From the NCBI GenBank assembly GCA_027292975.1, contig JAPUGG010000274.1:1-41003 (forward strand): a DNA stretch of 41,003 bases, in the 5' to 3' direction. This DNA is from Alphaproteobacteria bacterium. GTDB lineage: Bacteria; Pseudomonadota; Alphaproteobacteria; SMXQ01. The position numbers and the translations under genes are program-made. Under the pieces are notes generated by a model. The model was not told the origin of the DNA. It did no database searches and saw only the letters and a program-made list of their open reading frames with translations. Shown piece by piece: positions 10,805-23,548 of the stretch. Every line of letters begins with the position of its first letter. The first letter of the stretch is position 1.

Positions 10805-12412
10805 TCAGGCGACGGCGTGGATGGCCGCCTCCTTGACGCTGTCGGGCACCTGGGGCTCGAATTCCTTGAAGTTTTCTTCGAACATGCGCGCGACGTCGTG
10901 GGCGGCCTTGTCATAGGCCGCCTTGTCGGACCAGGTGGTCCTGGGATCGAGCACGTCCCGGGGCACGTCGGGGCAGCTCTCGGGCACCAGCACCCGGAAA
11001 TTGGGGTCGGGCGTCATGGCAACGTGGTCGAGCTCTCCGGCCAGGGCGGCGCGCAGCATGGCCCTGGTATAGGCGATTTTCATGCGGCTTCCGACCCCAT
11101 AGGCGCCGCCGGTCCAGCCGGTATTGACCAGCCAGCAGTTGGTTTCGTGCCGGGCGATGCGTTCGCCCAGGAGCTTGGCGTAAACCGTGGGATGCCGCGG
11201 CATGAAGGGGGCGCCGAAACAGGTTGAGAAGGTCGCCTCGGGTTTGGTCACGCCGCGCTCGGTGCCGGCCACCCGCGCCGTGTAGCCCGACAGGAAATGG
11301 TACATGGCCTGGTCGGGGGTCATGCGGCTGATCGGCGGCAGCACGCCGAAGGCGTCGGCCGTCAGCATCACCACATGGTCGGGATGGCCCGAGGTCAGGG
11401 TGTCGGAAATGTTGGCAATGAACTCGATGGGATACGACACCCGCGTGTTTTCGGTGAGAGCCTCGGAATCGAAGTCGAGCGCGCGCGTCACCGGATCGAT
11501 GACGACGTTTTCCAGGACCGTGCCGAAGCGATGGGTGGTGGCGTAGATCTCCGGTTCCGCTTCTTGGGACAAGCGGATCGCCTTGGCATAGCAGCCGCCC
11601 TCGAAATTGAAGATGCCGTTGTCGGACCAGCCGTGTTCGTCGTCGCCCACCAAGATGCGCGAGCCATCCGCCGACAGCGTCGTCTTGCCGGTTCCCGACA
11701 GGCCGAAGAAGATCGCCGCATCGCCCCCATCGCCGATATTGGCCGAGCAATGCATGGGCATCACGCCCTGGGCCGGCAGCAGGTAGTTGAGGATCGAAAA
11801 CACCGATTTCTTGATCTCCCCGGCATACCAGGTGCCGGTGATCAGCACCTCACGGGCGGCGAAATTCACGATCACGCAGATGTCGGAATTGGTGCCGTCG
11901 GTGGCCGGGTCGACGTTGAGCCCCGGCGCGTGCAGGATGGTGAAGGCGGGCTCAAAAGAGGCTAACGCATCATCCGCCGGCTGGATGAACATGTTGCGCG
12001 TGAACAGCGCATGCCACGCGGTTTCGGTGACCACCCGCACGTTCAGCCGGTAATCGAGATCGGCGCCGGCATAGCTGTCCTGGATGAACAGGTCGCGGTC
12101 GACGTAATAATCCAGGATCTTGCCGCGGATGGCGGCATAGTGCTCTTGGGAAATCGCCCGGTTGACCGACCCCCACCAGATATCGTCGCGGCTGGTGGCT
12201 TCCTCGACGATGAACTTGTCATTAGGCGAACGGCCGGTGTATTCGCCGGTCTCCACCGCCAACGCCCCGCCGGGGACTAAAAGGCCTTCGCCGCGTTTGA
12301 TCGATTCCTCGACCAAGGCAGGCGCGGCCATGTTCCAATAGGCCGCGCGGGCACCTTTGATCCCGTGCTTATCCAAGCCGATGCTGCTCTTGACGGATCC
12401 CCGCTCTTCCAA
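10805..12412 (-). CDS. pckA: Phosphoenolpyruvate carboxykinase (ATP)
   Basis: Converts oxaloacetate plus ATP to PEP, the entry step of gluconeogenesis from C4 acids. At 535 residues it is the ATP-type enzyme: the kinase-type P-loop GLSGTGKT is at residues 237-244, preceded by MHCSANIG and followed by DDEHGW. The TTG start is supported by GGAG 8 nt upstream on the minus strand. A TATATAAAG stretch at 12453-12462 could hold the -10 box, but no -35 consensus is obvious at the right spacing. In many alphaproteobacteria pckA lies directly beside chvI-chvG. Here a nickel/cobalt module separates them. Confidence 0.97.
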   Translation of the reverse strand: MEERGSVKSSIGLDKHGIKGARAAYWNMAAPALVEESIKRGEGLLVPGGALAVETGEYTGRSPNDKFIVEEATSRDDIWWGSVNRAISQEHYAAIRGKILDYYVDRDLFIQDSYAGADLDYRLNVRVVTETAWHALFTRNMFIQPADDALASFEPAFTILHAPGLNVDPATDGTNSDICVIVNFAAREVLITGTWYAGEIKKSVFSILNYLLPAQGVMPMHCSANIGDGGDAAIFFGLSGTGKTTLSADGSRILVGDDEHGWSDNGIFNFEGGCYAKAIRLSQEAEPEIYATTHRFGTVLENVVIDPVTRALDFDSEALTENTRVSYPIEFIANISDTLTSGHPDHVVMLTADAFGVLPPISRMTPDQAMYHFLSGYTARVAGTERGVTKPEATFSTCFGAPFMPRHPTVYAKLLGERIARHETNCWLVNTGWTGGAYGVGSRMKIAYTRAMLRAALAGELDHVAMTPDPNFRVLVPESCPDVPRDVLDPRTTWSDKAAYDKAAHDVARMFEENFKEFEPQVPDSVKEAAIHAVA

Positions 12413-12482
12413 TTCCTGATCTCCAGTTTGCGCCCGGGCAGGCCTCGGGCAACCTTTATATACGGGTTCGCCCTAGGGGATG

Positions 12483-12532
12483 CTAGAGCATTTTCCGGCC
12501 CAATTGAACCATTCGACCGGAAAATCCTCTAG
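12483..12532. repeat. Dispersed palindromic repeat, copy 1
   Basis: A 50-bp sequence with 16-bp arms (left begins CTAGAGCATTTTCCGG; one mismatch between arms) around an 18-nt centre containing ATTGAACCA. It is related to the arms of the element at 20748-20989. It lies between the end of cbtA and the pckA promoter region. The cbtA stop codon (12529-12531) falls inside its right arm. As RNA it would form a strong hairpin and may stop cbtA transcription before pckA. It resembles REP-type extragenic palindromes. Confidence 0.75.
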
Positions 12533-13224
12533 TCCGCCGGCCGGCCTGAAAATCGGCCGAGAAAGATGCTCACGGCGACGCCGAGAACGGCCCAGAACAC
12601 CGCCGAGGAGGTCATCGAAGCGGCCACGAAGGCGGCCACCAGCGCCGCCGGCAGGGCGGCGCCCGCGCCGGTGGCCGCTGCCGGCCCGCCGGCGATAAAC
12701 GGGAGCGCCAACAGGGCGAGGCCCGCGGCGCGCCAGCGCCGGCGCCCGGCAAAGACCACCAGGCCCAGGCCCGCCCCGGTGGCGCCCACCGCGCCCAGCC
12801 ACCACAATTGCCGCGTGGCGAGGTCGCTTTCGGCCATCCCCGGAAGGTGCGGAGGGACCACCAGGGCCGGGGCAAGGGTGAACACCGCAAACCCCGCGAT
12901 TCCCCAGAGGAGGCCCTCCATCACGGTGGGGTCGCGGCCGGAAAAGGCGATGGCGCCGGCCAGCAGGAGACCGAACCCGGCGCCCGTGAGCAGGCTGGCG
13001 GCCAGGGTCAAGCCGGCGCGCGCAAGGGATTGCCGCCGGCTGTCCGCCGCCACCACCACCGAGCCCGCCGAGCCCCCGCCGAGGCCCGCCCGGGCCAGGG
13101 CCGCCGCCTCGAAGATTTCCGCCTGGTGGATGAGTGGCACCACCTTCAGCGCCTGGACGGTGAACCCCACGGCGCCCGCGATTAGCCCTGCCATGATCCC
13201 GGCCAGCAGGATGCGGCGCATCAC
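12529..13224 (-). CDS. cbtA: CbtA family cobalt transporter subunit
   Basis: Membrane protein of 231 residues with five to six hydrophobic segments. It begins MMRRILLAG and GLIAGAVGF and has conserved histidines and an acidic EIFE in the first loop, as in the CbtA family (predicted cobalt uptake with CbtB). The start is GTG 13224 or, equally well, ATG 13221. It is the last gene of the nicO-cbtB-cbtA unit, 28 bp after cbtB. Its stop codon lies inside a dispersed palindromic repeat, so the final residues may have been set by that insertion. No cobalamin riboswitch was recognised upstream, although CbtAB units are often under B12 control. Confidence 0.85.
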   Translation of the reverse strand: MMRRILLAGIMAGLIAGAVGFTVQALKVVPLIHQAEIFEAAALARAGLGGGSAGSVVVAADSRRQSLARAGLTLAASLLTGAGFGLLLAGAIAFSGRDPTVMEGLLWGIAGFAVFTLAPALVVPPHLPGMAESDLATRQLWWLGAVGATGAGLGLVVFAGRRRWRAAGLALLALPFIAGGPAAATGAGAALPAALVAAFVAASMTSSAVFWAVLGVAVSIFLGRFSGRPAD

Positions 13225-19258: not shown

Positions 19259-19346
19259 TTGTTAAACCGTGGCATCGACAATACGCCGATCAAAGGACCC
19301 GTCCGCGGCCCCGATCGGCGCCGAGGGGCGCGCAAGGAGACCAATC

Positions 19347-20663
19347 GTGAGTGACCAATCCAGCATCGGGGACGGCGGCGCCGGCTACAAGGTCGCCGAT
19401 ATCGGCTTGGCCGAATGGGGCCGCAAGGAAATCTCCATCGCCGAAACGGAAATGCCGGGATTGATGGCGCTGCGCGAGGAGTATGGCGCCGCGCAGCCCC
19501 TCAAGGGCGCGCGCATCGCCGGCTGCCTGCATATGACCATCCAGACCGCGGTGCTGATCGAGACACTGATCAACCTCGGCGCCGATCTGCGTTGGAGTTC
19601 GTGCAACATCTTCTCGACCCAGGACCACGCCGCGGCGGCCATCGCCGCCGCCGCCATTCCCGTCTTTGCCTGGAAGGGGGAGACCGAAGAGGAGGCCGTG
19701 TGGTGCATCGAGCAGACCATCGACGGCCCCGACGGATGGCGGCCAAATATGATCCTCGATGACGGCGGCGACCTCACCAGGATCATGCACCATGAACATC
19801 CGGAACTGATGGCCGACGTGAAGGGCATCTCCGAAGAGACCACCACCGGCGTCATCCGTCTGTCCGAAATGCAGAAGCGCGGCGAACTGTTGGCGCCCGC
19901 CATCAACGTCAACGATTCCGTCACAAAGTCCAAATTCGACAATCTCTATGGCTGCCGGGAGAGCCTGATCGACGGCATCAAGCGGGCCACCGACGTCATG
20001 CTGGGCGGCAAGACCGCGGTGGTGGCCGGCTACGGCGACGTCGGCAAGGGCTGCGTCGCGGCCCTGGCCGGCCAGGGGGCGCGCGTCATCGTCACCGAAA
20101 TCGACCCCATCTGCGCCCTTCAGGCAGCCATGGAAGGCCATCAGGTGATGACCATGGACCAGGCCGCCCCGCTGGGCGATCTGTTCGTCACCGCCACCGG
20201 CAATATCGACGTCGTGACCATCGATCATATGCGCGCCATGAAGGACCGCGCCATCGTCTGCAACATCGGCCATTTCGATAGCGAGATCCAAATCAACGCG
20301 CTGCGCAACATGTCTTGGGACGAGATCAAGCCCCAGGTCCATGAGGTGACCTTGCCCGACGGTAAGCGGCTGATCATATTGGCCGAAGGGCGGCTGGTGA
20401 ACCTGGGCTGCGCCACCGGCCATCCCAGCTTCGTCATGAGCTTCTCGTTCACCAACCAGGTCATCGCCCAGATCGAGTTGTGGCAGAACCATGAAAAATA
20501 TGGCAGGGAGGTGTACTTCCTGCCCAAGAATCTGGACGAAAAAGTAGCGCGGCTCCACCTCGACCACGTCGGCGTGCGCCTGACCCAGCTGACCCGGGAA
20601 CAGGCCGAGTATATCGCCGTCCCCTCGGACGGCCCCTTCAAGCCGGATCACTACCGCTACTAG
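19347..20663 (+). CDS. ahcY: Adenosylhomocysteinase
   Basis: Splits S-adenosylhomocysteine into adenosine and homocysteine, clearing the inhibitor of methyltransferases. The 438 residues start at GTG 19347, supported by AAGGAGA six bases upstream; an in-frame start 78 bp earlier has no ribosome site. Substrate-domain landmarks include [28 protein letters not shown] and EETTTGV. The NAD-binding fold has [11 protein letters not shown], and the C-terminal [10 protein letters not shown] closes the active site of the neighbouring subunit. It is transcribed alone, with a promoter/operator before it and a strong hairpin after it. Confidence 0.98.
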
Positions 20664-20747: not shown

Positions 20748-20989
20748 CGAGAGCATTTCCGGGCCAGATTGAACCATTTGACCGGGATGATTTTGCCCCA
20801 AGGCTAGGCGCGCGTCGCATGGCGATGTGGGGCATCGGCGAAGGTGGGCAACAACGCCTCGGGGTAAAAGCACCCGGCCTTTGGTGGGGCTCGTCATGCG
20901 AAGCGTGCATCCGCACGACGCCCCGCGTCTGCCCTGGAAACCGATGAGCACCCATCAAATTGATTCAATCTGGCCCGGAAGTGCTCTAG
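20748..20989. repeat. 242-bp element with ~30-bp terminal inverted repeats (MITE-like)
   Basis: The left arm (20748-20777) and the reverse complement of the right arm (20960-20989) match at 26 of 30 positions, sharing GAGCA and TTCCGGGCCAGATTGAA. The same motif forms copy 1 at 12483-12532. The 180-bp interior is GC-rich, codes for nothing recognisable and contains an imperfect hairpin (about 20886-20927). No target-site duplication is evident. It could be a non-autonomous mobile element or two facing copies of a REP-like repeat. Confidence 0.65.
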
Positions 20990-20998
20990 ACTGCCGCC

Positions 20999-23548
20999 GT
21001 GTTGCACGGGGGTTTCATCGACCGGCGAATGCCGCCCCGGCCAAGCCGGGCGCGGGACGCCGTGCTTAACGCCCCGCGGACACGTATGGGCCGGGTCCCC
21101 GCTGCCCTTCCCATCCCCTTTTTGGGGGCCCAAAGCGCCGATACCCTGAACCTCCAGATCCTCGCCGCGCTCTTGGTCGCCGGGCTCCTGATTGCCGTAT
21201 TCCTTGCCGTCCGGCTGGCCCTCGCCCGTGACCGCGGCCGAGATGCCCTGACGGATGCCGAGCTCCGGGCGGCGGGTTTGGACGCGGCGGCGGCCGCGGC
21301 TCCCGGCAGTTACTGGTCTTGGCCCGCATCCGCCCCGTCCGAGGACCCCGGGACCGGGGGACCGGGCTTGGCCGCCTTGCTGGGCGGCGGCGATGGTGAC
21401 CTCCAAACCTTTGATGGTGTCGTTGGAGCCTTGGCGCCGGGCCCGGCCGGCGACCTCAGCGACTACGTGGCGGCGCTGCGCAGGACGGCGGCGCCGTTTA
21501 CCCTGACCATTAGTGATGCCGGCGGCAAGCGCACCTTTGAAGTCCACGGTGCGCGCAGCGCCGGGTCCGAGGGCATCCCCGGCTTCGATACGGTCTGGTT
21601 CCGGGATATCAGCAAATCCGCGCAGGCGGCGGCGACGACCAAGCAGCGCACCGAGGAACTCACCTCTCTCAGCGCCCAATACCGCAATACTTTGGACCTC
21701 ACCGGAATCCCCGTATGGGTGCGGGGGCCGGGGCTCGATCTCGCTTATTGCAATCGGGCCTTCGCCGAGGCGGTGGAGGAGGACTCGCCCGCGGCGGCGG
21801 TGACGGGATGCGCGGAAATCGCCGGCGGGCCCACGGGCTGGGGACGGGAACTCGCCGAGGAGGCCCGGCGGACGGGCACCCCGGTCACCCGCAGCACCTA
21901 TGTGGTGGCGGGTGGAGAACGCAGGTTCATGGAAATAACCGAGCTTCCCATGGGCGGCGCTTCCAGCCCTTGGCAGGTTATGGGGATCGCCATCGACCGG
22001 ACCGACGCCGAGGAAGCCCGTGGCGATCTTTCACGCCACATGATGGCCCATGGCGAGGTCCTGGAGCGCTTAGGCACGGGGATCGTAATTTTCGGCGCCG
22101 ACACCCGCGTTCAGTTCGCCAACACCGCCTTTGCCCGGTTGTGGGACCTGGACGAGCAATGGCTCAAGACGGCGCCCACCCACGGCGAGGTGCTGGAGGA
22201 CCTTCGCGCCCGCCGGGTCTACCCCGACCAGACGGATTTCCAGCAATTCAAGCTCGAAGTCATGGGGCTCTACACCTCTTTGATCGACCCCCGGGAAGAA
22301 CTTCTCTACCTCCCCGATGAACGCGTCTTTCGCGAGGTGGTCAACGCCCATCCCTTCGGCGGCCTGCTGGTGACCTACGAAGACGTGACCGACCGGCTGA
22401 CCCTGGAACGGTCCTACAACACGCTGATCGAGGTGCAATCGGAAACCCTGGACAACCTCCTCGAAGGGGTCGTGGTGTTCGGCACCGACGGGCGCATCAG
22501 GTTGTCCAATCCGGGTTATGCGCGCATTTGGAAGCTCGACGCCCAAACCCTGCGGGGCGAACCGAGGCTCGCCGACATCATCGAGGAGGTGCGTGACCTG
22601 TTCATTTTCGAGGGTCCCTGGGAGACCTTCCGGGATAAGATCCTGGCCGGAGTCATGGACCGCACGCCGCGCACCGGAAGGTTCGAGCGCGCCGATGGTT
22701 CGGTGATCGACTATGCGGCGGTGCCCCTGCCCGACGGTGCCATGATGTTCGGCTATATCGACGTCACCGACACGGTCTCGGTCCAGCGCGCCCTGGCCCA
22801 ACGCAACGAGGCCCTGCTTGCCGCGGATGGCCTGAAATCGCAATTCATCACCAACGTGTCCTACGAATTTCGCACGCCGCTCAACAGCATCATCGGCTTC
22901 ACGGAGATCCTGTCTAATCAGTATTTCGGCACGCTCAACGAACGCCAGGGAGAATTTGCCGAAAATATTCTTCAGGCCTCGAGGGTCCTGTTGTTTTTGA
23001 TCGACAACATCCTCGATCTCGCCCTCATCGACGCCGGCGGGCTGGAGTTGGAGCGCGGTGAGGTGGATATCCACGCCATGATAGAATCCGTAGCGGCCCT
23101 GGCCCGGACCCGGAAACAAGAGATTTCCTTGGAGATCGATTGCCCCGAGGATATCGGCGCCCTGATCGGCGACGAGCGGCGACTCAAGCAGGCGCTGTTT
23201 AATCTGGTGATCAACGCCATTACCCATACGCCGGCCCACGGGCAAATTTCCCTTGCGGTGCGCCGTCAGAACGGTGCCGTCGAGTTTTCCGTGACCGATA
23301 CCGGGCCGGGGATCCCCGAAGAGGAATTCGACCGTCTCCTTGGCCGCTTCGAGACCGGTCGGGGCAGCGCCGAAAGGGGCAAGGGGCTGGGGCTTGGCCT
23401 GGCCCTTGTGAAAAGCTTCGTCGAACTTCATGGCGGCCGCCTGGTGCTGGCCTCGGCGCCGGGCGAGGGAACCACCGTGTCTTTCGACGTCCCCGCCGAC
23501 CGCACGGCCCCAACCGGGCAGGGTACCGAGGCCGAACCCGCGCCATAG
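20999..23548 (+). CDS. divL: DivL-like PAS tyrosine pseudo-histidine kinase
   Basis: Membrane-anchored cell-cycle regulator. In Caulobacter DivL couples DivK to the CckA-CtrA relay. One membrane helix (about residues 53-72) precedes several PAS domains (about 220-600), a HisKA-like helix and an HATPase domain (NLVINAITHTP, TDTGPGIP, GLGLGLALVKSF). The phospho-accepting position is tyrosine: SYEFRTPLNSIIGF, Tyr622 counted from the first start, where ordinary kinases have His. This is the defining DivL feature (Tyr550 in Caulobacter). The start is uncertain: GTG 20999 gives 849 residues, while ATG 21086 gives 820 and keeps the membrane helix near the N-terminus. Position next to ahcY supports the call. 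Confidence 0.88.
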   Translation: MLHGGFIDRRMPPRPSRARDAVLNAPRTRMGRVPAALPIPFLGAQSADTLNLQILAALLVAGLLIAVFLAVRLALARDRGRDALTDAELRAAGLDAAAAAAPGSYWSWPASAPSEDPGTGGPGLAALLGGGDGDLQTFDGVVGALAPGPAGDLSDYVAALRRTAAPFTLTISDAGGKRTFEVHGARSAGSEGIPGFDTVWFRDISKSAQAAATTKQRTEELTSLSAQYRNTLDLTGIPVWVRGPGLDLAYCNRAFAEAVEEDSPAAAVTGCAEIAGGPTGWGRELAEEARRTGTPVTRSTYVVAGGERRFMEITELPMGGASSPWQVMGIAIDRTDAEEARGDLSRHMMAHGEVLERLGTGIVIFGADTRVQFANTAFARLWDLDEQWLKTAPTHGEVLEDLRARRVYPDQTDFQQFKLEVMGLYTSLIDPREELLYLPDERVFREVVNAHPFGGLLVTYEDVTDRLTLERSYNTLIEVQSETLDNLLEGVVVFGTDGRIRLSNPGYARIWKLDAQTLRGEPRLADIIEEVRDLFIFEGPWETFRDKILAGVMDRTPRTGRFERADGSVIDYAAVPLPDGAMMFGYIDVTDTVSVQRALAQRNEALLAADGLKSQFITNVSYEFRTPLNSIIGFTEILSNQYFGTLNERQGEFAENILQASRVLLFLIDNILDLALIDAGGLELERGEVDIHAMIESVAALARTRKQEISLEIDCPEDIGALIGDERRLKQALFNLVINAITHTPAHGQISLAVRRQNGAVEFSVTDTGPGIPEEEFDRLLGRFETGRGSAERGKGLGLGLALVKSFVELHGGRLVLASAPGEGTTVSFDVPADRTAPTGQGTEAEPAP

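Follow-up and report, generated by a model that had tools for sequence, protein, structure and literature searches.

The two inverted repeats of the 41,003-nt stretch analysed here (the window), a 236-bp insertion upstream of a sensor histidine kinase gene and a 44-bp palindrome facing pckA, belong to one dispersed family, which very probably consists of MITEs of IS630 (Tc1/mariner) type that occur in two forms, are moved by a transposase acting in trans, duplicate a TA target and often sit at the −10 box of a promoter. The initial annotation described facing arms at 20748 and 20960, taken as a MITE or a REP doublet, and a single third arm at 12483. The facing arms are indeed present, at 20750-20779 and 20958-20987 (30 nt each, 90% complementary, 178 nt apart), and form the ends of the 236-bp insertion. 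The features at this site are:

19269-20663, plus strand: ahcY (adenosylhomocysteinase; TIGR00936, E 1.7e-193), upstream neighbour of the long copy
20749-20750, no strand: left copy of the target-site duplication, changed to GA (the empty site of G003 has TA)
20751-20986, plus strand: long MITE copy, 236 bp, GAGCATTTCC...GGAAGTGCTC, with base-level boundaries taken from the orthologous site of G003, which is empty
20751-20779, plus strand: left terminal inverted repeat (inverted-repeat match; weight matrix)
20892-20920, plus strand: internal 29-bp module, CGTCATGCGAAGCGTGCATCCGCACGACG, found at 14 places and also seen in the alignment of copies
20958-20986, minus strand: right terminal inverted repeat (inverted-repeat match; weight matrix)
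20987-20988, no strand: right target-site duplication, TA
20999-23548, plus strand: gene of a sensor histidine kinase, next downstream of the long copy, with an uncertain start codon

The genome G003 belongs to the same genus as the source genome, that of an uncultured alphaproteobacterium, with an AhcY 91% identical. Its spacer between ahcY and the kinase gene reads GGGGAGAGGCC-TA-CACTGCCGCCGTG, and that of the window reads GGGGAGAGGCC-GA-[236 bp]-TA-GACTGCCGCCGTG; around the junctions themselves, GAGAGGCC-TA-CACTGCC in G003 corresponds to GAGAGGCC-GA-[element]-TA-GACTGCC in the window. The long copy is a precise insertion with TA duplication. Its right end, like that of the other long copies, carries GATTC (20962-20966), which fits the CcrM methyltransferase site GANTC.

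The third arm also exists, but it is not single: the arm at 12483/12484 has a partner, and the two (12483-12504 and 12511-12532) form a complete inverted repeat which, without its TAs, is a 44-bp palindromic copy.

10805-12412, minus strand: pckA (PEP carboxykinase; TIGR00224, E 4.5e-212), facing the short copy
12484-12485, no strand: TA left of the short copy
12486-12529, no strand: short copy, a 44-bp palindromic micro-MITE, recognized by its inverted repeat; 52 copies of exactly 48 bp, including both flanking dinucleotides, occur in 0.97 Mb
12530-12531, no strand: TA right of the short copy

On its other side, the last base of the short copy and the duplicated TA (12529-12531) together provide the TAG stop codon of a minus-strand CbtA-like gene (12529-13224).

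Genome-wide counts were made in the 2.58-Mb assembly, which is a MAG of ∼92% completeness, and statistics were taken from 0.97 Mb of this genome, mostly picked for carrying copies, plus 0.67 Mb of G003. The half-motif AGAGCATTTTCCGG with up to two mismatches gave 203 matches in the assembly, compared with 17 for the reversed control. Moreover, a 32-bp arm weight matrix at ≥14 bits detected 169 ends in the 0.97 Mb and none when reversed, so the arm repeat is far beyond chance. Spacings of facing ends showed a sharp peak at 48 bp (∼52 pairs) and a second group at 240-390 bp, corresponding to a 44-bp palindrome that is little more than a pair of ends, and to composite elements of ∼240-400 bp, in which two halves, each similar to a short element, enclose a conserved non-coding interior. 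The short consensus, TAGAGCATTTTCCGGCCAAATTGAACCATTTGACCGGAAAATGCTCTA, folds into a near-perfect hairpin (computed energy −27.3 kcal/mol), and the mean pairwise identity of short copies is 78%. At least 10 further long copies share the interior of the window's long copy; the best match is 89.7% identical across 243 bp, and several align with it from end to end. Both forms are short and non-coding, with terminal inverted repeats and many copies, as in MITEs; the reading of the initial annotation, a dispersed family that includes a MITE-like composite, is supported, and the genome-wide arm search gave neither a handful of copies nor an interior without conservation.

Long copies differ mainly in the presence, position and orientation of the 29-bp module, which is restricted to them and occurs in both orientations at several positions (e.g. 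window 20892-20920, L127:639, L127:689 and L132:440). CGTC-tagged REPs are defined by a CGTC tag, a stem beginning with AT, a 4-5-nt loop and a CCA-like tail (PMC3733652). The module can be read as CGTC-ATGCG-AAGCG-TGCAT-CC, with one G-U pair, and by its letters resembles such a REP nested in a MITE, yet it is found only within long copies. Besides complete elements, ∼28 lone ends retain the terminal 14-16 bases only (GAGCATTTTCCGGCC) and diverge abruptly thereafter (among L064-L153, e.g. L066:19290, L089:6680, L125:4068 and L133:2619). By length, 84 ends are full, 3 intermediate and 28 half. In comparison with G003, some lone half ends are full ends there (L100) and others have no counterpart (L125).

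Flanks of copies were surveyed for empty sites between the 0.97 Mb of the own genome and the 0.67 Mb of G003. Five further empty sites, which involve copies of either form and occur in both genomes, all fit a 2-bp TA duplication: the own-genome short copies at L082:2724, L087:3862 and L152:15366 have a precise empty site in G003, and the G003 copies at L205:2578 (short) and L187:4741 (long) have one in the own genome, which for the latter reads cgaaaccacTAgatataggg. At L152:15366 and L187:4741 both TAs are intact where the other genome has just one TA; at L082, L087 and L205 one dinucleotide copy, or its empty counterpart, is altered. Both forms have inserted precisely with TA duplication, which supports the mobility that the initial annotation raised as a possibility, and insertions have occurred since the split from G003. 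In 90 complete copies, TA is retained on both sides in 38, on one side in 49 and on neither in 3. Outward of the ends, the bases are T (88%), A (77%) and then G/A (92%), followed by background composition, which indicates a YTAR target of which the TA is duplicated. Insertions are almost exclusively intergenic: none of 55 short copies lies wholly within a predicted gene, although 86% of the DNA is coding; this is in part because the density of YTAR sites between genes is 5.8 times that within them (own genome). One long copy, L128:4483-4780, interrupts a perfect palindrome with 15-bp arms, CCGCGCCTGTCCGAC TA GTCGGACAGGCGCGG, precisely at its centre, as if it had inserted in the tip of a terminator-like hairpin.

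How the two forms are related bears on whether the 44-bp copies themselves move. Either end of the long form looks like a short element with one half decayed, and the first 35 bases of the long left end joined at CCGG to the last 8 of the right end give almost exactly the short element. Hence short copies could be immobile remnants of long insertions after deletion between internal CCGG motifs, and decay of ends in place is seen elsewhere (L100 compared with G003). We consider this unlikely, since the diagnostic TTCCGGGCC occurs in 11 of 20 long ends but in only 2 of 110 short ends (own genome), and 52 short copies have an identical length of 48 bp; the difference at the diagnostic site favours independent amplification of the two forms. 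It is much harder to maintain that the palindromes are fixed host sites, such as terminators, mRNA-stabilising hairpins or the operator of a regulator. The strong hairpin and the intergenic location would suit such sites, but presence and absence between two genomes of one genus are precise and accompanied by TA duplication, no T run follows the consensus hairpin, and the neighbours of short copies (28 tandem, 16 divergent and 8 convergent) track intergenic length, so that no strong terminator-like convergent bias exists. A terminator or orientation function was also considered for the family and set aside, there being no clear orientation bias beyond intergenic length.

Mobile elements of IS630 type are thus the preferred reading, and the ends point to their source. 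Among IS630-family IS from alphaproteobacterial plasmids, one of Bradyrhizobium (TAGAGCATTTTCCGACCGGAATGAATC) matches the MITE end at 22 of 27 positions, with 20 of 27 at its other end, and one of Sphingobium (TAGAGCATAATCCGACCTAACTGAATC) also matches at 22 of 27; in both, the TA lies in CTAG. As a control, none of 20,000 random sequences with TAGAGCA held fixed scored above 20 of 27. ISY100, a member of the IS630 family, inserts almost solely at TA and duplicates it, and 30 bp of each end are enough for its activity (PMC2170065). We place the family in the IS630 type because of these end matches, the YTAR target with its TA duplication and the TA behaviour of ISY100, and the mover of the family is by inference from its ends an IS630-type transposase. 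Such a transposase, supplied in trans, would bind the GAGCA...TCCGG ends and move the element, which would be joined to the TA of a YTAR target (often CTAG) and have this TA duplicated by gap filling. On the other hand, a 44-bp element is far below the persistence length of DNA, and synapsis of its ends by two bound transposases is not obvious.

The transposase expected by the initial annotation, bordered by exactly these arms, was found neither in the own genome nor in any related genome searched, and the IS630 transposase domains (DDE_3, PF13358; HTH_Tnp_IS630, PF01710) were not found in the own ∼92%-complete assembly. The ends are similar (22 of 27) to those of IS630-family IS of other Alphaproteobacteria, with no exact autonomous partner among the genomes searched; a driver in the same genome is usual for an IS630-family MITE, though a decayed family can do without one. 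The driver has probably been lost from the own genome, where the burst of insertion is probably over because no transposase was found and the copies have diverged. G003 carries one IS630-family IS (DDE_3 plus HTH_Tnp_IS630) between CTAGAGCGGTTTCAAT inverted repeats, which agrees with the MITE end in its first bases only (14 and 16 of 27). The transposase of this IS (L220:683-1738) is split between two frames that overlap close to a stretch of eight T, an arrangement like that of programmed frameshifting. Other candidates were rejected: IS630 transposases in the MITE-bearing MAG of L041 (G298) and in SS_bin_35 (G299) have different ends (TAGAGCGTGTC and TACCAAG), and when arm pairs 600-2600 bp apart were considered as autonomous elements, two G003 candidates of 1.4-1.5 kb proved to be chance neighbours flanking an apparent cation/proton antiporter gene and a polyA-polymerase-like gene.

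TA targets have also been reported for the IS427 group of IS5, and a MITE of this or another TA-duplicating family might be considered; it is highly improbable, as no DDE_Tnp_1 (IS5/IS4-like) was found in the own genome, and both the sequence of the ends and their CTAG context correspond directly to IS630-family IS. Least tenable is the REP/REPIN alternative raised in the initial annotation, in which the facing pair is a REP doublet moved by a RAYT (an IS200/IS605-like tyrosine transposase): the family is short, palindromic and intergenic, with hundreds of ends and facing pairs, but this reading is already largely refuted by the absence of Y1_Tnp (PF01797) from the own genome under a search that was positive in 5 of 14 control genomes, by ends that match IS630-family IS, and by empty sites with 2-bp TA duplications, REPs being characterized by no target duplication and TA duplication being, to our knowledge, not known for RAYT transposition of IS200/IS605 type.

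For the elements of IS630 type favoured here, the position relative to promoters is of particular interest. The native site upstream of the kinase gene is promoter-like in G003 (TTGTGG-17-TACACT), and its counterpart in two genomes from a different genus of the family reads TTGTTC-17-TACACT (G004) and TTGTTC-17-TAAACT (G008). The insertion in the window splits this promoter-like site at the TA of the −10 and leaves TTCAAT-17-TAGACT, and a similar arrangement faces pckA:

20964-20992, plus strand: predicted hybrid promoter of the histidine kinase gene, TTCAAT (20964-20969, element), 17 bp, TAGACT (20987-20992, target)
12480-12508, minus strand: predicted hybrid promoter of pckA, TTCAAT (12508-12503), 17 bp, TAGCAT (12485-12480)

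These two predicted promoters prompted a test of TAnnnT at gene-facing ends, i.e. those with a gene start within 150 bp, gene starts being taken from a simple home-made codon-usage caller. In the own genome, TAnnnT was present at 33 of 72 gene-facing and 8 of 65 non-facing ends (P = 2e-5), and G003, which was tested afterwards, gave 12 of 23 and 4 of 30 (P = 0.006). For all ends with TA, pooled, the values were 45 of 95 facing a gene start and 12 of 95 not (Fisher, 2e-7). The pooled 45/95 (47%) also exceeds the 249/904 (28%) of native start-facing YTAR sites (P = 1e-4), and the excess over native CTAG sites alone, in the own genome only, is marginal (P = 0.05). Thus, preferential settling of the family in −10 boxes is fairly well supported. 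TTCAAT at 17 bp was likewise commoner at gene-facing ends (57/87 vs 42/89, P = 0.016), with no significant excess in G003 alone (P = 0.21) and no association between TTCAAT and TAnnnT within gene-facing ends (P = 0.64). TTCAAT is a poor −35, with 3 of 6 matches to TTGACA. An insertion in a −10 box would set TTCAAT 17 bp upstream of the kept TAnnnT and might replace the lost −35, so insertions may remodel promoters; judged from motif and spacing, replacement of the −35 by the element end is only plausible. More tentative still, and on balance doubtful, is the combined proposal that a 44-bp element made up solely of two fused ends can itself transpose by an IS630-type reaction, and that the family would act as a portable −35, entering the TA of existing −10 boxes and restoring a promoter with 17-bp spacing, so that many insertions would rewire transcription while leaving genes unbroken. 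Another genome (G001) has downstream of ahcY (L163) a sequence similar to a MITE end, AATGGTTCAAACTTGGGGAGCCTTGCTCTAAACTGC, at the corresponding point of the promoter; it is either an old insertion or chance, no other copies having been found in G001.

A relaxed pattern gave 87 matches in G003 and one in G004; it was absent from two other genomes of the genus and six further genomes of the family, and a search of 289 genomes from across the class revealed no others with it. An exact 35-mer had no match in named genomes, a relaxed 27-mer found 22 loci in four MAGs (N075bin64, jk18x27bins.37, jk18x9bins.84 and SS_bin_35), and no copies were found in viral contigs. The long form elsewhere is more diverged (∼75% in G003, 67-69% in the jk18x MAGs).

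The points of interest are the very short mobile copies and the insertion at −10 boxes. Copies of 44 bp with precise, TA-duplicating empty sites offer a natural test system for the minimum size of a Tc1/mariner-type transposon, and a statistic repeated in a second genome suggests that elements of this kind settle in −10 boxes, where they may stand in for the −35.

The kind of element, an IS630-type MITE, is known, and the family appears to be new. It is most readily compared with RUP of Streptococcus pneumoniae, which is likewise non-coding, of high copy number and TA-targeted, with ends like those of an IS630-family IS, and for which mobilisation by IS630-Spn1 has been proposed (PMC2229807, PMC3049150); however, RUP has a single 107-bp form, whereas the present family combines a 44-bp palindrome with longer composite elements, and no driver IS was found in its genome. 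The Correia elements (NEMIS) of Neisseria share TA termini, have 24-bp ends and often lie upstream of genes, with promoters reported inside them (PMC10969869, PMC2229807), but belong to another host class, and here the element gives at most a −35, with the −10 coming from the target site. ERIC/IRU of enterobacteria are intergenic with TA termini and target duplication (PMC2229807), and are set apart by description through their 127-bp length and 7-bp ends. The CIR repeats of Caulobacter and Brucella are alphaproteobacterial and intergenic, with TA termini and a GANTC site, matched here by GATTC in the right end of the long form; by description they differ in a length of ∼110 bp and in having no terminal inverted repeat listed. 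IS630-family IS with TAGAGCA ends (Bradyrhizobium, Sphingobium, Mesorhizobium and Roseomonas) have ends up to 22/27 identical and a TA in CTAG, but are ∼1,050 bp long and encode a transposase. Finally, a rhizobial palindrome of ∼50 bp, TAGAGCATGATCCGGAAAAGTGG..., which matches 284 plasmid records (among them L241:601-654 from Rhizobium ruizarguesonis), has the terminal TAGAGCATnnTCCGG in common with the present family and another interior. From this shared terminus it may represent a sister set of IS630-type micro-MITEs, which offers a testable origin for the similar palindromes common in rhizobia.
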